A DNA stretch of 64,000 nt from an uncultured Woeseiaceae bacterium (GTDB taxonomy: Bacteria; Pseudomonadota; Gammaproteobacteria; Steroidobacterales; Woeseiaceae). A model generated the notes under the pieces. It did no database searches. It saw only the letters and a list, made by a program, of their open reading frames with translations, and was not told where the DNA came from. Each line of letters begins with the position of its first letter. The first letter of the stretch is position 1. Location of the stretch: positions 1 through 64,000 of the forward strand of contig CAJJBK010000001.1 of NCBI GenBank assembly GCA_905182415.1, written 5' to 3'. Positions 39,521 to 60,789 of this stretch are shown here, in pieces. A program made the translations under genes and the position numbers.

Positions 39521-40573
39521 TTATTTAGTCGTAATCTCATGCTGAGCATCGTCTTCTGAACCCATGATAATTGCCAACCACTGAGTTTGTTCGTCACTCT
39601 CTAAGGTCATTTTTAGTGCCATAGTTAAGGGCACAGAAAGGATCATACCAACAGGGCCAAATACCCAGCCCCAGAAAAATAAACTGATGAAGACTATCAA
39701 AGGAGATAATCCAACTCCATAACCGAGTAATTTGGGTTCAATAAAATTTCCGTATACAAGATTGATGGCAAAAAATGCAATTGCTGTAGTAATCGCATCA
39801 CCAACCCCCAGTTGAACTAATGCCATCAATACTGCGGGCACAGCCGCAATGATCGAGCCTATAGTAGGTACATAATTCAAAAGAAAAGCAAACATACCCC
39901 ACAACAAGGGGAAATCAAGGCCGATCCATGATGTTGCCAATGCAACAGAAGTACCTGTAGCAATACTCATAATGGTCTTAATTCCTAAATAACGTCCTAA
40001 ATTAGCTACAAATATTTTTTGCCTCACGAATGAATCACGTTTGCGTTTGAAGGCGGCAAGTAATTTAATTTCAAAGGCTGATGCTTCCAGTAAAATAAAA
40101 ATCATTGTAAACATAATCAAGAATGCATTTGTCAGAACATCACGCAATGCATTCAATAGCGATGCCGCAAGACTCATTGCCCAACCAGGATCCAGAATTT
40201 GACTAAAATTCAGAGAAGTCTGATCGCCTGAAAAATAACTAGGTGCAGCACCCATAAAATTCTCTAGTATTGTATCCAACCTTTCTTGGTATTCGGGTAA
40301 AGCCGTTGTAAATTCTGCAATTGATGTTCCTAATACACCACCAATAGACAATAGGAGAAGCATTATAGATGCTACAATAATCAAGGCTGCTAAGAATGCG
40401 GGTATCTTTTTACTTTGCAGCCAAAACAATGGTCTCAAAGTAATTAAAGCAAGAAAAATTGCCAATAAAAAAGGAATAATTAGTGCTGCAGCTGCTTGTA
40501 GAGCATAAATAATAATAAATAATGCAGCTAAACTGATAAGGATTGAATAATTGTTACTTTCAGTTTGCTTCAT
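39521..40573 (-). CDS. AI-2E (TqsA/PerM) family membrane protein
   Basis: A 350-residue inner membrane protein with about seven or eight helices. The N-terminal paired helices, the central SPLIVFISLFFWGWVFGPVG block and the FLLNYVPTIGSIIAAVPAV block are the AI-2E/PerM signature. Family members have been linked to autoinducer-2 export and to Na+/H+ antiport, so the substrate is unclear. The stop directly abuts the convergent class V PLP gene, with no spacer for a terminator. It starts 36 bases after the cupredoxin gene and may be the last gene of the copper operon. Confidence 0.88.
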   Translation of the reverse strand: MKQTESNNYSILISLAALFIIIYALQAAAALIIPFLLAIFLALITLRPLFWLQSKKIPAFLAALIIVASIMLLLLSIGGVLGTSIAEFTTALPEYQERLDTILENFMGAAPSYFSGDQTSLNFSQILDPGWAMSLAASLLNALRDVLTNAFLIMFTMIFILLEASAFEIKLLAAFKRKRDSFVRQKIFVANLGRYLGIKTIMSIATGTSVALATSWIGLDFPLLWGMFAFLLNYVPTIGSIIAAVPAVLMALVQLGVGDAITTAIAFFAINLVYGNFIEPKLLGYGVGLSPLIVFISLFFWGWVFGPVGMILSVPLTMALKMTLESDEQTQWLAIIMGSEDDAQHEITTK

Positions 40574-40609: not shown

Positions 40610-41281
40610 TTAACGCTTCTGACGCATACGCACAAGCCATGATGTTAAAGAATATCCTAAAAACAAAACAACCAGTGACAAATATATTAAATTATCTGGC
40701 AAGTAAGAAGCTCGATAAAAGGGATCAGTGATTCCAGTTACGGCCCATAAATCTCCATTACCCTCTCCCACAACGAGTTGACCTCGCATCCCCATTTCCA
40801 TATGTTGAGCCATATCACAATGAACCAAATAATTTCGGTTCTCACTTGGAACAATGAATGTTCCAGTCGTAGATTTTCCAGCCATTGATTCTATATGAAA
40901 CATTCCAGCTGGATATAGATATTTAGGAAGGCCATGCACCATCCATTGATGACGAACATCATCTTCATTGATAAACGTTATTGTCACTCTTGTACATGGA
41001 TCAACTTTCCATTCATGCTCACTCATACCAAAAATTGTTCCAGGAATTTCTTTCGCGTATCTTTGCCCAGCGCTTACGGTAATATTCTTTTCTCCAGAAA
41101 TACGCTCGCAGCCCAACGGTAAATTATTATGATTACTATTCATAACAATACTGCCATTGTCTCCATTCATTGAATGATGGCCAGACATTGAGTGACTGTC
41201 AGACATTGAATGCTGCAATCCATATGACGGATGAATAAAAAATAGAGATAAAAAGATGCCCCATAATTTTTGATTAATCAT
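40610..41281 (-). CDS. Membrane-anchored type 1 copper cupredoxin
   Basis: A 223-residue protein: signal peptide (residues 1-21), a short Met/His-rich stretch (SMSDSHSMSGHHSMNG, 25-40) able to bind copper, one cupredoxin domain, and a C-terminal transmembrane helix (about 194-214) with a basic tail. Type 1 copper ligands are His111 (in VRHQWMVHG), Cys155 and His160 in HCDMAQHMEMGM, and Met163 or Met165. It would be an extracytoplasmic electron carrier tied to the inner membrane. Its start overlaps the multicopper oxidase gene end by four bases, so it is probably the electron partner of that enzyme. Confidence 0.85.
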   Translation of the reverse strand: MINQKLWGIFLSLFFIHPSYGLQHSMSDSHSMSGHHSMNGDNGSIVMNSNHNNLPLGCERISGEKNITVSAGQRYAKEIPGTIFGMSEHEWKVDPCTRVTITFINEDDVRHQWMVHGLPKYLYPAGMFHIESMAGKSTTGTFIVPSENRNYLVHCDMAQHMEMGMRGQLVVGEGNGDLWAVTGITDPFYRASYLPDNLIYLSLVVLFLGYSLTSWLVRMRQKR

Positions 41282-42978
41282 GATCTACCTTTATTTCTTT
41301 GTGTAAATATTGACCGTAATATTGCCAGGAAACTCCCAAAAAATAACGTCAGCAAGAGAATCCTAATTAATAATATATTGTCTTTTCCAGGTTCAGAGTA
41401 AAAAGCTGGGATATAGCTCTCCCAAACCGGAATCTTTTTTCTATAATAATCGGCGCTGAAATATTGGGCATAATCGACCCCACGAGTCATTGGCCAACCT
41501 GATTCATCAAGATATGCTTTATCAACTATGGCACTTATATTCCCTCCGGGGGCGACACCATCAGTAGTCGTACCTTTATTCTGGTGATCATGATACAACC
41601 AAATACCAGGTCCATAAGTTTTAGTGCCATCATTTGTAAAAGAAAGATCTATATCATAACGCTGTGATGTTGCCATCCAAAGAACATCTTGAGGAGTTTG
41701 GCTTAATTTGGGTAATTTGACTCCATCTCTTTCAATAACAGTAAATTTATGCCCATGAGTATGTAAGGCAATGCCTTTACTACCTCCATTTACAACCCGT
41801 AATCTTGCTTTTTCACCCTCTCTAGAAACGATCAAAGATTCTCTAAAAGTATAAGGAAATGAACGTCCATTTAAAGTGAAATAGTCGACATTTGCATCCG
41901 TGATATCGTAATCACGATGCATCGATTGTGTAATTAATCTTGGGTCATTATTTTCTTGAATTCTAACTCCAAGCTCTTTATCAAGATCAAGATAATGTAA
42001 ATCATATTCACTATCGTATGACTCTTTTAGAGATTGCGATGGAGCCCTTACTTTACCGGCCCCTAAGTTCATTGTTTGTAAATTATTATTTGGTCTATTT
42101 TCTTCTATTATGAATAAACCTTGTAAGCCCATCTGAACATGAACATGCGGCTGAACATGACAATGATAAAACATGGTTCCAGCTTTCCTGGGTGTTAAAT
42201 CATAGGTTCGTGATTGCCCGGGAAGAATAGGTAATTCACTTGTTAAAGGAACACCATCATTACCTTCCCCATTACTATCAATAAAACCATGGTCGGCGCC
42301 ATGCAAATGCAATGTATGTGGCATATAATGAGTATTCTCAAGTGTAATCTTAACCACATCTCCTTGCTCAACACGAATTGCTGGTGAAGGAAGTTTTAAT
42401 GAATATCTGGCTTCTTGAGTTTCAAAATTTTCAACGGCCATTCCAATTAGTTTTGGAGCAAATACCCATATACCGGGTTGAACGCCTGGAGCGATATCGT
42501 AAGTTGTAACTGGTCTTTTCGAGATTGGAGAACTGCCATTTAGTTCCGCAACTTCTAAGCGAATGTGAATTTCATCTGGATCGCCATCCCCATCGAGGTC
42601 TCTACCTTTTACAATTGCATCTGAGCTTAATCCACTGCGTTGCAATGTTTCTTTGCTGACATTGTTTGTACCCAATACAAATGCTGCTACACCATATGGG
42701 TTATCCGCCAAACAAGGTAACGATTCCTCAATGTTGACTCCGTCGATAATTTGAGAAGCACGCCAACCTGATGGATCCTCGGGGCATGCCAACTCGGATT
42801 CTGAATTTGAAGTCATTGTTGATTGTGGTAAGGGACGATAGTTTTCCGCACCAAACCAAGAGGTAAGCGTTAAGCGCATATCAAAGGGATACCATTGAGA
42901 TGGATATACCAAAAACATAGAAAGTATTAAAATTACTAATAGTAAATACTGTTTTTTAGAATTTTTTATTTGCATCAA
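41278..42978 (-). CDS. Two-domain multicopper oxidase with N-terminal extension and C-terminal membrane anchor
   Basis: A 566-residue protein: N-terminal signal or anchor helix (11-25), an extension (about 50-195) with a Ca2+-binding-like DLDGDGDPDE (128-137), cupredoxin domain 1 (about 195-295), domain 2 (about 365-485), and a C-terminal transmembrane helix (about 536-556). Copper ligands: H224-L-H226-G and H272-C-H274 with His278 and Met283 in domain 1; H406-T-H408-G-H410 and H463-D-H465 in domain 2. The type 1 copper set is thus in domain 1, as in so-called type C two-domain oxidases. It would oxidise metal ions, amines or phenolics and reduce O2 in the periplasm. Confidence 0.87.
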   Translation of the reverse strand: MMQIKNSKKQYLLLVILILSMFLVYPSQWYPFDMRLTLTSWFGAENYRPLPQSTMTSNSESELACPEDPSGWRASQIIDGVNIEESLPCLADNPYGVAAFVLGTNNVSKETLQRSGLSSDAIVKGRDLDGDGDPDEIHIRLEVAELNGSSPISKRPVTTYDIAPGVQPGIWVFAPKLIGMAVENFETQEARYSLKLPSPAIRVEQGDVVKITLENTHYMPHTLHLHGADHGFIDSNGEGNDGVPLTSELPILPGQSRTYDLTPRKAGTMFYHCHVQPHVHVQMGLQGLFIIEENRPNNNLQTMNLGAGKVRAPSQSLKESYDSEYDLHYLDLDKELGVRIQENNDPRLITQSMHRDYDITDANVDYFTLNGRSFPYTFRESLIVSREGEKARLRVVNGGSKGIALHTHGHKFTVIERDGVKLPKLSQTPQDVLWMATSQRYDIDLSFTNDGTKTYGPGIWLYHDHQNKGTTTDGVAPGGNISAIVDKAYLDESGWPMTRGVDYAQYFSADYYRKKIPVWESYIPAFYSEPGKDNILLIRILLLTLFFGSFLAILRSIFTQRNKGRS

Positions 42979-42979
42979 T

Positions 42980-43558
42980 CTAGTCCGTTCTTATCATCCG
43001 AAATAAATAAGTACCAAATATAAGTATAAGGCCAAAGAAAACAATAATTGACCATGACAAATTACTCGCCCCAACACTAAACGGAAAAACCGATGAGTAA
43101 ATATTATTGTTAGTCGGATGGCCGGCTGTGACAATACCTACATAATCACCGTTCTCTAGAAATTCATGGGTCACAGCATAGGATGCATTGGTTTTAATAA
43201 TTGGTTCCTGATAAAAAACCGTAACACGATCAATATCTTGAATTTTTATTATGTCAGCCATTTGCACAAACTCACCTTTATCAGTCACATTTTTAATAAT
43301 ACGGAAATCTACGGGTACCTGACTTAAACTTTTATGCAGATAATCTAGGACGAAAATTGTATTCCCTGCTTCATCAAGATCCTCACAAAATTGCTTATCA
43401 CCAGATGTATCTGGTTGGTAAGCAGTGAAATGAGCCTCATAAAATCCAATCGAGATGATACAACTATCCTCAGAGAGCAAAACACCTCCGCCCGCTAGGC
43501 AATTTGACATCCAACTTATTAGAATCAACATCACCGACAAATTATAATTTTTTGTCAT
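42980..43558 (-). CDS. Unrecognised periplasmic protein with C-terminal membrane anchor, copper module
   Basis: A 192-residue protein of no family I recognise. It has a signal peptide (residues 1-22, ending CLA), a periplasmic domain of about 140 residues with two Cys (about residues 32 and 58), and a C-terminal transmembrane helix (about 167-188) with a short cytoplasmic RMIRTD. The domain looks beta-rich, with alternating hydrophobics, for example DRVTVFYQEPIIKTNASYAV. It is the first gene of a tight group: one base separates it from the multicopper oxidase, which overlaps the cupredoxin. All three have the same anchor topology, suggesting one membrane complex. No His/Met-rich copper motif is visible in it. 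Confidence 0.8.
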   Translation of the reverse strand: MTKNYNLSVMLILISWMSNCLAGGGVLLSEDSCIISIGFYEAHFTAYQPDTSGDKQFCEDLDEAGNTIFVLDYLHKSLSQVPVDFRIIKNVTDKGEFVQMADIIKIQDIDRVTVFYQEPIIKTNASYAVTHEFLENGDYVGIVTAGHPTNNNIYSSVFPFSVGASNLSWSIIVFFGLILIFGTYLFRMIRTD

Positions 43559-43660: not shown

Positions 43661-45109
43661 TTACCCTTTATTTTTATCTAATTTTTCAATAGTAAAACCT
43701 GTAAATCCATAAATCATTGAAATTACTGGATTGATTAAATTAAAAAAGACATACGGTAAATATGTAAAAGTAGGGACGCCAAGGGTAGCTGCCATGTACG
43801 CGCCACATGTATTCCAAGGCACCAAAGGAGAAGTTAGTGTTCCAGAATCCTCAATTACTCTCGAAAGATTTTTCGGATCAAGGTTGCGTTTTTTGAATTC
43901 TGCTTTAAACATTTTACCTGCTAACACAATCGAAATATATTGATCGGCACATACTATATTGATGCTAATGCAACTGAGGATAACTGTAGTAATTAAGGAA
44001 CCAGTTGATTTAGCTGCCTTAAGAGATGAGCTGATGATTGTTTTCAGCATTCCTGCATGCTCAAGAACAGCACCAAATGACATTGCACTAATTACAAGCC
44101 ACATAGTGTTAAGCATAGATTGCATACCACCACGTGAAAGTAAGCTGTCTATCTCTGGGATACCAGTCGCTGAGGTATAACCAGTTGCTAAGGCTAGCCA
44201 AATACCTTTAATTAAGGATAACGTCGGAGATAAATCATTTGAGTCTGCAAAAATCATGACAGCTTCCGGCTGCAGAAAAAATGCCATAACTCCGCCCAAT
44301 AATGCGCCAAATAAAATTGTAGGTAATGCTGGAATCTTACGAATGGCCATAAGGAAAACTACCAATAAAGGCAACAATGCTAATAAAGTAATATTGAAAG
44401 TGGCATCTAATGTTTCAGTCAAAAGAGTTATTGTAGAATCTTCTATATCTGAATCTACACCAAAACCTAATATCATAAAAATTACCAAAGCCAATAAAAA
44501 TGATGGAGTAGTTGTCCAGACCATGTGCTTTATGTGCGCAAATAAATCAGTACCTGTAACTGCAGGAGCCAAATTAGTAGTGTCTGAAAGTGGAGACATT
44601 TTATCGCCAAAATAAGCTCCTGAAATTATAGCGCCTGCGGCTATAGCGGGTGATAGATTTAAGCCAATCGAAACAGCTATCAGAGCCACACCCAGAGTGC
44701 CTGCAACAGTCCATGAGCTCCCGGTAGCTAAAGCGGCAATCGCACAAATAAGACATGCTGCGGGATAAAATATTTTTGGATTAAGTAACTCAAGGCCATA
44801 AAAGATCAGTGTTGGCACAGTCCCAGAAATTAGCCAAGTTCCGATCAACGCACCCACACAAAGAAAAATTAATAATGCGCCCATGGCGGTACTGATACTA
44901 GCAACCATGGACTCCAGTATATTTGACCAAGTATGTCCAATTTTAATGGCCACCAAACTTGCAATGGCTGCACCGATTATCAGAGCAATTTGATTCGGTC
45001 CATACGATGAATCAGATCCAAAGAAAAATACTGAAAATCCCAACATAAAAACAAGGCTCATGATTGGTATCAATGACTCTAATAAAGAAGCTTGGCGTGG
45101 TTCACTCAT
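43661..45109 (-). CDS. Na+/H+ antiporter, NhaC family
   Basis: A 482-residue inner membrane protein with about eleven to twelve helices. GDKMSPLSDTTNLAPAVTGTD is a hallmark of NhaC proper, with the AGAIISGAYFGD helix before it. It probably exchanges Na+ for protons, although some NhaC relatives exchange organic acids or amino acids. It is 37 bases downstream of an M28 peptidase gene on the same strand. Two other NhaC-superfamily proteins in the window (48319-49776, 59377-60789) are of a different branch. Confidence 0.9.
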   Translation of the reverse strand: MSEPRQASLLESLIPIMSLVFMLGFSVFFFGSDSSYGPNQIALIIGAAIASLVAIKIGHTWSNILESMVASISTAMGALLIFLCVGALIGTWLISGTVPTLIFYGLELLNPKIFYPAACLICAIAALATGSSWTVAGTLGVALIAVSIGLNLSPAIAAGAIISGAYFGDKMSPLSDTTNLAPAVTGTDLFAHIKHMVWTTTPSFLLALVIFMILGFGVDSDIEDSTITLLTETLDATFNITLLALLPLLVVFLMAIRKIPALPTILFGALLGGVMAFFLQPEAVMIFADSNDLSPTLSLIKGIWLALATGYTSATGIPEIDSLLSRGGMQSMLNTMWLVISAMSFGAVLEHAGMLKTIISSSLKAAKSTGSLITTVILSCISINIVCADQYISIVLAGKMFKAEFKKRNLDPKNLSRVIEDSGTLTSPLVPWNTCGAYMAATLGVPTFTYLPYVFFNLINPVISMIYGFTGFTIEKLDKNKG

Positions 45110-48318: not shown

Positions 48319-49776
48319 TTAATGACGAAGATACCTAAGAATAATTATGGTCAATATTTGCAATAAGAACATACATAAGACAATCCTTGTCATTGAGGTG
48401 AGTCCAGCTATCAAAAAACCGATCGAAGCAATTATACCATTTGTTAGTGCATAAGGAATTTGTGTACGAAAATGTGACAATGGCTCAATACCTGCGCCAA
48501 TTGAAGAGAGGATAGTTGTTTCTGATATGGGTGATGAATGATCACCAAACAAAGCACCCGAGAGAACCGCGCCAATGATTATTGGAAACTCATTTCCCGT
48601 AGCTAAAGCAGAAGGAATTGCCAGGGGCATCATGATGATAATGGTTCCCCAAGAAGAACCAATAGCAAAAGATATAACGGCAGATACAAGAAAAATCACT
48701 AACGGCAATAAACTTGGGCTCACTATTTCCTTGGCTACATTACCGACATATTGCCCCGTCCCAAGCTCCTCACTAACTTGACCCAATGCCCATGCGAGAA
48801 TGAGTGTCGCAGCAATAGGGAGCATTCCAGATATGCCCTCTATATAGACAGAAAACAAATCACTGAGTTTTTTTGCTCCTTTATATAGCACCAAAGAAAT
48901 AAGGGTGACGGTAGCCAAAAAATATGCGGATGCAAGTGCCGCTCTAAAATCAGAACCTGGTATCTGTTTATCTGGGAATCCATGGATATTAAGAACAGAA
49001 AATAATGTTACACCTAATACCAAAAGAGGGAGCCAAACAAAAATTGCTGCAATATTTTTAGAATGATTTTCAGATGACTCGTGTGAAATTTTTGTTGCAC
49101 TTTCTGCGAGTCGCATTTGCCCGTAATCAAAACCCAATATTGATAATATCGGAACAATACTAATAGCTAGCCAAGCATAAAATTGATATGGAATAGCAGA
49201 AATAAAAACTTCCCATTCACTGGTAATTATCTGGTTAATCTCAAAGCTATCCTTGATAACACTCATCGTAAATACCCCCCATCCAATAAAGGGAATTAAT
49301 ATTGCAATCGGGGATGAGGTTGAATCAATTATGAAAGCTAACTTCTGTCTTGAAATGCCATATCGATCGAATAAAGGCTGAAATACAGGTCCCACTATTA
49401 GTGGTGTTCCAAGATCAGAAAAAAATATAAGAATGCCGCTAAACCATGCACTAATCTGAGCTGATGCTTTGTTAACAATATATTTCATAGTGGTCTTTGC
49501 GAAAGCTATGCCACCACCCGAATACTGGATTAATTTTACAAAACCACCAATAAACCCTAGTAATACAAGAATACTAGCGTTATATGTATCGGCAATTTCG
49601 GGAACTAAGTAGTCAGTTATTACTAAGGGAAGAAATAAAAGTGGCGACGTTGAATGGAGAAGAAAGACGCCTAGAATAACTCCTGAGAATAATCCTAAGA
49701 GGACATTTCTTGAGCTTAATGAGACACATAGTGTCGCGACTACAGGTAAAAGAGATACAAAGCTCGTTTCACTCAA
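48319..49776 (-). CDS. NhaC-superfamily Na+/H+ antiporter or amino acid exchanger
   Basis: A 485-residue inner membrane protein with about twelve helices. It resembles the 59377-60789 protein: DRYGISRQKLAFIIDSTSSP and GALFGDHSSPISETTILSSIGAG, in contrast to the GDKMSPLSDTTN of classical NhaC at 43661-45109. This branch is often annotated as a Na+/H+ antiporter but includes likely organic-solute exchangers. It is followed by an exported RidA gene (62 bases) and preceded by glutathione peroxidase (12 bases). Confidence 0.87.
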   Translation of the reverse strand: MSETSFVSLLPVVATLCVSLSSRNVLLGLFSGVILGVFLLHSTSPLLFLPLVITDYLVPEIADTYNASILVLLGFIGGFVKLIQYSGGGIAFAKTTMKYIVNKASAQISAWFSGILIFFSDLGTPLIVGPVFQPLFDRYGISRQKLAFIIDSTSSPIAILIPFIGWGVFTMSVIKDSFEINQIITSEWEVFISAIPYQFYAWLAISIVPILSILGFDYGQMRLAESATKISHESSENHSKNIAAIFVWLPLLVLGVTLFSVLNIHGFPDKQIPGSDFRAALASAYFLATVTLISLVLYKGAKKLSDLFSVYIEGISGMLPIAATLILAWALGQVSEELGTGQYVGNVAKEIVSPSLLPLVIFLVSAVISFAIGSSWGTIIIMMPLAIPSALATGNEFPIIIGAVLSGALFGDHSSPISETTILSSIGAGIEPLSHFRTQIPYALTNGIIASIGFLIAGLTSMTRIVLCMFLLQILTIIILRYLRH

Positions 49777-59376: not shown

Positions 59377-60789
59377 ATGTTAAACGAACCTCAATGGTAT
59401 TCTGTTTTACCACCAATCATTGCCATTATTTTAGCGATAAAAACGAAACAAGTTCTGCCTTCATTATTCGCCGGAATCTGGATTGGCTGCACACTTCTCT
59501 ATAATTTTAATCCATTGATTGGTCTTGCTAAGGGTTTTGATAGTATCATTGATGTTTTTAGTGATCCTGGTGATACTCGCATTTTGATTTTCACCCTCCT
59601 TATTGGCGCATTAATTACAACCATCGAAAAATCCGGAGGTGTAAGCGGTTTTGTTGCCTTCTTAGAGAATCGAAAATGGGTACATACTGGTCTTCGAGCA
59701 CAAATTCTAGCGTGGATGACAGGAATTGTAATTTTCATTGAATCCAATATTACTTCATTGGTCGCGGGTTCAGTAAGTAGACCATTGTTTGATCGCTATA
59801 AAATCTCAAGAGAAAAATTAGCTTATCTTATCGATGCGACTGCTGCGCCGGTTTGTGTAATGGTGCCATTGAATGCTTGGACGGCTGTAATTATAGGATT
59901 GATCGCTTCCACCGGCATGGAGAATGCTTTTGGAGTGTTCATACAATCCATACCTTATAATCTCTATGCAATTACTGCGATTATCTTAGCATTCATTGTA
60001 GTTTGGAAAAATATCAATTTAGGGCCAATGGCCGCAGCAGAAATCAGAACTCAACAAGGTCAAATCAGCTGGCAGAGTAACGAGCATTCAACAGAAATAC
60101 CTGATAATTCAAACGAAAAATCATCGGATGCCAAAGAAAGTTCTGCCATATTTATGATCCTACCAATATTAACAATGACTCTTTCGATGCCTGCTTTCCT
60201 TTTTTTAACGGGTGGTGGAAATATAATGAAAGGCAACGGTCCTACAGCCATTTTTTGGTCCATATGTGCCGCCTTATTTGTTTGTTGGGCCATGTTATTG
60301 ATTAAAAAGAGACACAATATATCTGAATTAATGCAATTTTTTATGGAAGGAGCCGGAAAATTACTTCCCATTGCAACCATACTGCTATTGGCATTAACGT
60401 TAGGTGATGTTGCAAAATCTCTAGGTACTGGACCCTATGTGGCAGGTATTGCAGGAGCAAATGTGCCTGCTGTTTTCTTAGCTCCTTTGGTATTTCTAGT
60501 GTCCGGTTTTATCGCATTTTCAGTGGGTTCGAGTTGGGGTACTTTTGCGATCATGATTCCCATTGCCATATCCATTGCCACAACCCTTGGTCTTTCAGTG
60601 CCGATGTTCTTAGGGGCGGCTCTTTCTGGTGGAATTTTTGGAGATCATGCCTCACCTATTAGTGATACCACAGTTGTTGCCTCAATGGCGGCAGGAACTG
60701 ATCATATCGAACATGTCAGAACTCAGTTGCCTTACGCCATGATAGCTGGCATTATTTCAATTATTGGCTTCATCTTATTAAGCTTATGA
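59377..60789 (+). CDS. NhaC-superfamily transporter coupled to the deacetylase gene
   Basis: A 470-residue inner membrane protein with about twelve helices, of the same branch as the protein at 48319-49776: LFDRYKISREKLAYLIDATAAP and GGIFGDHASPISDTTVVASMAAGTD. Its ribosome-binding site (GGAAGG) lies inside the end of the deacetylase gene, three bases from its start, giving coupled translation. The partner suggests transport of an acetylated amine, a free amine or acetate rather than simple Na+/H+ exchange, but this is inference. The end overlaps the convergent dapF by six bases. Confidence 0.87.
   Translation: MLNEPQWYSVLPPIIAIILAIKTKQVLPSLFAGIWIGCTLLYNFNPLIGLAKGFDSIIDVFSDPGDTRILIFTLLIGALITTIEKSGGVSGFVAFLENRKWVHTGLRAQILAWMTGIVIFIESNITSLVAGSVSRPLFDRYKISREKLAYLIDATAAPVCVMVPLNAWTAVIIGLIASTGMENAFGVFIQSIPYNLYAITAIILAFIVVWKNINLGPMAAAEIRTQQGQISWQSNEHSTEIPDNSNEKSSDAKESSAIFMILPILTMTLSMPAFLFLTGGGNIMKGNGPTAIFWSICAALFVCWAMLLIKKRHNISELMQFFMEGAGKLLPIATILLLALTLGDVAKSLGTGPYVAGIAGANVPAVFLAPLVFLVSGFIAFSVGSSWGTFAIMIPIAISIATTLGLSVPMFLGAALSGGIFGDHASPISDTTVVASMAAGTDHIEHVRTQLPYAMIAGIISIIGFILLSL

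Follow-up and report, generated by a model that had tools for sequence, protein, structure and literature searches.

The copper membrane monooxygenases (CuMMO) are pMMO and AMO. In the main text of the report on PmoD from Methylocystis sp. Rockwell (PDB 6cpd; Fisher et al. 2018, PMC6189053), PmoD proteins are described as having a signal peptide, two invariant cysteines and a C-terminal helix, and their genes are reported only from genomes with a CuMMO, that is, those of methane- and ammonia-oxidising bacteria. The same text states that a tested representative of the Cx9HxnC class of PmoD binds copper and forms no CuA site, and that PmoD genes are known beside multicopper oxidases (MCO) in methanotrophs, where the class is Cx8MxnC. 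A pmoD of M. capsulatus, MCA2130, lies beside an MCO and is less expressed without copper (PMC6688271). Methanotrophs also have pairs of a partner protein and a MauG-like peroxidase, namely MopE/SACCP, CorA/CorB and MbnP/MbnH (PMC3621798).

Here we describe a trio of genes in the window, the whole 64-kb stretch of DNA that was analysed, which comes from the genome of a marine Woeseiaceae bacterium whose assembly is 1.8 Mb and 99% complete. The trio (Table 1) is transcribed in the order 192-residue protein, oxidase, cupredoxin. The oxidase gene begins with a TTG at its 42978 end, an ATG at 42975 being equally likely; its junction with the gene for the 192-residue protein is 1 base, or 4 bases with the ATG start, and the oxidase and cupredoxin genes overlap by 4 bases, in agreement with the tight packing and 1-4-base junctions of the original prediction. 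That prediction also gave all three proteins an N-terminal export signal or helix and a C-terminal membrane helix, and both are seen by hydropathy. The N-terminal hydrophobic stretch is present on each protein, that of the cupredoxin being weak (KD-19 0.9), and the C-terminal helix reaches KD-19 maxima of 2.3 in the 192-residue protein, 2.6 in the oxidase and 1.9 in the cupredoxin, and is common, by the same measure, to nearly all relatives of the oxidase and cupredoxin.

Wherever dS was computable, dN/dS of the trio genes was 0.03-0.11, and they are therefore genuine genes; they are under purifying selection, and their conservation spans the Woeseiaceae and some neighbouring families. Promoter and terminator scans gave no clear excess over shuffles. 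The NhaC-type gene upstream is the same neighbour in most of the Woeseiaceae loci L034-L047, the AI-2E permease gene downstream is a frequent conserved neighbour in this family, and both probably lie outside the function of the trio. Three NhaC-type antiporter homologues are present in the window as a whole.

Table 1. Positions of the trio, its neighbours and other loci named in the text (positions without a locus number are those of the window)
Feature	Position	Strand	Basis
PmoD/AmoD-family protein, 192 aa	42980..43558	-	PDB 6cpd sequence, profile and model matches; invariant C33, H43, C58
Two-domain multicopper oxidase, 565/566 aa	41278..42978	-	Pfam Cu-oxidase_3/_2; PDB 3g5w and 2zwn; ligand conservation
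Cupredoxin, 223 aa	40610..41281	-	Pfam Cu-oxidase_2 fragment, E 2.7e-5; invariant copper ligands (27/27)
NhaC-like Na+/H+ antiporter family gene, upstream of trio	43661..45109	-	Pfam PF03553
NhaC-type antiporter homologue	48319-49776		
NhaC-type antiporter homologue	59377-60789		
AI-2E-family permease gene, downstream of trio	39521..40573	-	Pfam PF01594
CopA-like multicopper oxidase, 707 aa	L003:232-2355		PF07732
Trio in G191, with cytochrome c oxidase gene set	L167:5545-13406		
Trio in G098, with cytochrome c oxidase gene set	L050:1-7298		
PmoD-YtkA(-peroxidase) loci	L051-L053, L055-L060, L122-L133, L135-L165, L181		

The 192-residue protein had been regarded as unrecognised, but it has a known family: its membership of PmoD/AmoD is well supported. 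On its own it matches Methylocystis PmoD (6cpd) over residues 32-162 (phmmer E 7.3e-11), and a profile of 25 relatives run against PDB sequences finds 6cpd at E 5.4e-20, with the next match at 0.97; no model in Pfam or NCBIfam matches the protein. A structure model made with the window sequence and seven close relatives (pLDDT 67, pTM 0.59) has 6cpd as its top Foldseek match (E 1.5e-11) and aligns to it in VIA-align with Z 17.4 at 2.2 A over 127/127 residues. The second-best VIA-align entry is CrdA, a copper resistance protein of H. pylori (Z 8.9), which on this model comparison may be distantly related to the PmoD fold and is given as a lead only. A weak PDB match to perfringolysin was set aside as chance, and Foldseek matches to GH158, TapA and the like as general beta-sandwiches.

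With 6cpd, as described in the main text of PMC6189053, the window protein shares a signal peptide (judged by hydropathy, whose N-terminal maximum is 1.8 and C-terminal maximum 2.3), a periplasmic domain that is a cupredoxin-like beta-sandwich, two invariant cysteines, a single C-terminal transmembrane helix and a histidine at the position of His51. The residues C33, H43 and C58 are invariant among 25 diverse members and form the motif C33-x9-H43-x14-C58, which belongs to the Cx9HxnC class. H43 is the residue at the His51 position; unlike CuA-class 6cpd, the window protein has no equivalent of Met49, a position taken by E41, and it lacks the motif of the CuA-forming subclass, Cx7MxHxnC (C41, M49, H51).

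The oxidase has two cupredoxin domains, at 194-294 and 362-486, and none further. Its Pfam matches (Cu-oxidase_3/_2) fall at 194-294 and 362-455, and both domains align in order with PDB entries 3g5w (E 1.7e-31) and 2zwn (E 1.2e-28), which we take to be type C multicopper oxidases; the two-domain architecture that had been predicted is thus upheld, and a three-domain alternative fails on alignment. As in 3g5w and 2zwn, domain 1 alone supplies the type 1 copper ligands (H221, C273, H280 and M283), both domains have trinuclear histidine pairs (H224, H226, H272, H274, H406, H408, H463 and H465), and the spacing is HCH-x5-H. Both sets of ligands are kept in 29-30 of 30 relatives. The placing of type 1 copper in domain 1 had been foreseen correctly, whereas the motif proposed for it, HCH-x3-H-x4-M, is to be replaced by HCH-x5-H-x2-M, because H280 occurs in 30/30 relatives and H278 in only 24/30. 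There are three cysteines in the mature part, none of them in domain 2.

What sets the window oxidase apart from 3g5w and 2zwn is an N-terminal extension of about 130 residues with a calcium-like loop and a cysteine pair, membrane helices at both ends, and a gene linked to that of PmoD. The loop (DLDGDGDPD) had been noticed from the start and is real, since all five aspartates (D127, D129, D131, D133 and D135) are kept in 29/29 full-length relatives; the pair C65/C89 (TTG-start numbering) is kept in the same number. Type C enzymes are homotrimers that hold the trinuclear copper between subunits; the monomer model of the window oxidase, with a pLDDT of 40, is too poor to be of use. The only other PF07732 multicopper oxidase in the window's genome is CopA-like; its middle is rich in Met and His, and its C terminus matches CopB weakly.

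The cupredoxin has a signal peptide, a C-terminal membrane helix, a type 1 ligand set (H111/C155/H160/M165) and, in keeping with its first description as Met/His-rich, a Met- and His-rich N terminus. Nine residues are invariant in 27/27 sequences: H111, M114, H116, M127, H154, C155, H160, M161 and M165. Because M114, H116, M127, H154 and M161 are among them, the sequence suggests that the copper chemistry of this protein goes beyond the mere carrying of electrons. A weak PDB match to AMPK was dismissed as chance.

A search for PmoB (PF04744) was negative in all 149 genomes, the window's own and its relatives, and positive in ten PmoD-bearing controls. PmoA was not found in the 35 order members tested (the window's genome and 34 relatives), nor PmoC in the window's genome, six relatives and G191, a genome of another family; the controls, four of them for PmoC, were again positive. 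Neither PmoA nor PmoB was found in G191. When 46 PmoD-bearing genomes were tested for PmoB and PmoA, 10 had both and 36 neither, the latter including the window's genome and the closed genomes G013 and G191. The published CuMMO-only distribution of PmoD thus does not hold in these genomes, and a search of part of the literature, in the main text of the papers, turned up no PmoD described from an organism without a CuMMO. The PmoD-MCO pairs of methanotrophs (MCA2130, PMC6688271; PMC6189053) are like the window in that a PmoD homologue is next to a multicopper oxidase, but their hosts oxidise methane, and their class as given in the main text of PMC6189053 is Cx8MxnC, whereas that of the window is Cx9HxnC; that main text makes no mention of a cupredoxin as the third gene.

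The same trio is present in four CuMMO-bearing genomes (G158, G397, G283 and G490). In two of these, G158 (L171) and G397 (L170), pmoB, pmoD, oxidase and cupredoxin follow one another on one strand, and the G158 locus is headed by pmoC; the trio of G283 and of G490 is apart from pmoB. Four more CuMMO genomes have the oxidase away from PmoD, usually with a cupredoxin. PmoC/AmoC matches number 9 in G158 and 6 in G397. In the oxidase tree a branch with support 100/99 holds the CuMMO-free oxidases together, those of G158, G397 and G285 lying beside them. The window module is homologous to a module of the CuMMO-bearing genomes. Sister oxidases are present in CuMMO genomes, in two cases immediately behind pmoB-pmoD, and this might mean that the trio is what remains of the accessory module of a lost copper monooxygenase and has no specific role. 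We consider this very improbable in view of the strong purifying selection, the invariant copper ligands and the retention of the trio across many CuMMO-free genera, and a degenerate remnant is rejected on the dN/dS of 0.03-0.11.

A PmoD-like gene occurs in 73 of the 149 genomes. In 19 of the 73, PmoD, MCO and cupredoxin are in a row, or at least PmoD and MCO are an adjacent pair by coordinates, and the trio is also adjacent in G191; a neighbourhood search thus shows the 192-residue protein recurring beside such oxidases, in 19 order members and G191. Among 369 gammaproteobacterial genomes, with the presence of the oxidase called at E <= 1e-50, PmoD was found in 13, the oxidase in 11 and both in 10. 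Without the window's own genome the counts for the remaining 368 are 12, 10 and 9 (Fisher p 7e-15, calculated on genomes that are not independent draws), and relatives of the oxidase are strongly tied to PmoD. In the phylum sample a single additional PmoD genome turned up, which has eight copies, and a pattern search of viral contigs found no relative.

Our best reading, to which we give about an even chance, is that the trio is a periplasmic module of PmoD type, anchored in the inner membrane, that acts as a relay of copper handling and oxidation; methanotroph-like genomes share it, but here it would load, detoxify or route copper without a CuMMO. Of the membrane-bound oxidase or copper-handling complex originally proposed, it is the copper-handling membrane module that fares best. 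The PmoD-like protein would be a membrane-tethered copper carrier that uses C33 and H43, and perhaps C58, and not a CuA ligand set, and the Met/His-rich cupredoxin would collect copper and pass electrons singly. The two-domain oxidase would take electrons from Cu(I), directly or by way of the cupredoxin, and reduce O2 to water, with copper being loaded, detoxified or routed at the outer face of the inner membrane. We infer that the trio proteins bind copper, that Cu(I) is the electron source and that the proteins contact one another. The identity of PmoD, the invariant ligands of oxidase and cupredoxin, the association of PmoD with the oxidase, the adjacency of the three genes, the same trio in CuMMO-bearing genomes, the negative searches for CuMMO genes and the purifying selection all speak for this reading, as do the published copper binding of a Cx9HxnC PmoD and the lower expression of the M. 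capsulatus gene without copper. Against it speaks that the host has a CopA-like oxidase elsewhere and that the trio's oxidase shows no clear CueO-like Met-rich loop.

Also against it is a second set of partners. In 53 of the 73 genomes PmoD is joined or fused to a YtkA domain (PF13115), and in 52 of these 53 loci a CCP_MauG di-haem peroxidase (PF03150) comes next, the contig of L131 ending after YtkA; in one more of the 73 the contig ends beside PmoD. The two arrangements were found together in none of the 73 genomes. In the PmoD tree, where several CuMMO PmoD rows are long-branched and only the CuMMO-free split is used, a branch with support 99/100 sets apart the 36 CuMMO-free rows of both arrangements. 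Thus 52 sister genomes pair the same PmoD clade with a haem peroxidase, which does not readily fit copper oxidation. The YtkA loci resemble MopE/SACCP, CorA/CorB and MbnP/MbnH, in which a partner (copper-binding in MopE) is beside a di-haem MauG-like peroxidase (PMC3621798), and the window locus differs from these in carrying an MCO and a cupredoxin. The PmoD proteins described here differ from published PmoD in their partners: a two-domain oxidase with its cupredoxin or, for the sister genera, YtkA with a MauG-type peroxidase. PmoD-MCO neighbours are known in methanotrophs, and it is the CuMMO-free setting and the YtkA/MauG-type partner set that are unusual.

An electron-transfer relay would make use of this exchange. 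PmoD would be redox-active, with a periplasmic oxidase dedicated to keeping it oxidised, and the module would dispose of electrons or oxidant with no copper handling, MCO with cupredoxin (O2) and MauG-type peroxidase with YtkA (H2O2) being interchangeable. Such a relay fits one PmoD clade with either MCO and cupredoxin (19) or YtkA and CCP_MauG (53, one truncated), never both in a genome, and partner enzymes that are both periplasmic and oxidant-reducing by family; yet without Met49 of the CuA site the protein is not expected to form a good centre for electron transfer, it has no evident electron donor, and we think the relay unlikely, if worth keeping in mind. Because oxidase and cupredoxin are swapped for di-haem peroxidase and YtkA, the role of PmoD is perhaps redox-linked, and this swap is the strongest reason to consider such a role rather than copper storage alone.

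Some loci have respiratory genes as neighbours. In G191 a complete set of cytochrome c oxidase genes is followed directly, after a short gap and on the same strand, by the trio, and the trio of G098 is convergent with an equivalent set; subunit II beside the trio carries cytochrome c domains in both. Together with oxidase genes near two PmoD-YtkA-peroxidase loci (L057 and L058), this would suit a module that delivers copper to the haem-copper respiratory oxidase and loads or protects its CuA/CuB sites. It is, however, an improbable role, as the trio has NhaC and AI-2E transporter genes, not oxidase genes, beside it in the window and in most Woeseiaceae, and cytochrome oxidase is far commoner than the module.

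Copper handling by a membrane-anchored module thus remains the reading we prefer; the three-gene observation is confirmed and its earlier interpretation partly supported. What is unusual is PmoD without CuMMO genes, PmoD beside a multicopper oxidase being in itself already known in methanotrophs. Because PmoD was known only alongside CuMMO, it has been regarded as a missing link in the oxidation of methane and ammonia, and a conserved, selected clade of PmoD in CuMMO-free genomes breaks this rule. Since PmoD is present in a genome without the monooxygenase, the family must have a job of its own. Tentatively, PmoD may lie at the centre of a periplasmic copper redox system that stands by itself, and not be an accessory of CuMMO by need. 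Its oxidising partner would be interchangeable, either the two-domain copper oxidase with cupredoxin, using O2, or the di-haem MauG-type peroxidase with a YtkA domain, and CuMMO organisms would have recruited or inherited the oxidase version in their pmo operons. The function of PmoD is open to study without the monooxygenase, and the two-domain oxidase and cupredoxin are partners worth testing, including in those pmo operons that carry the same trio.
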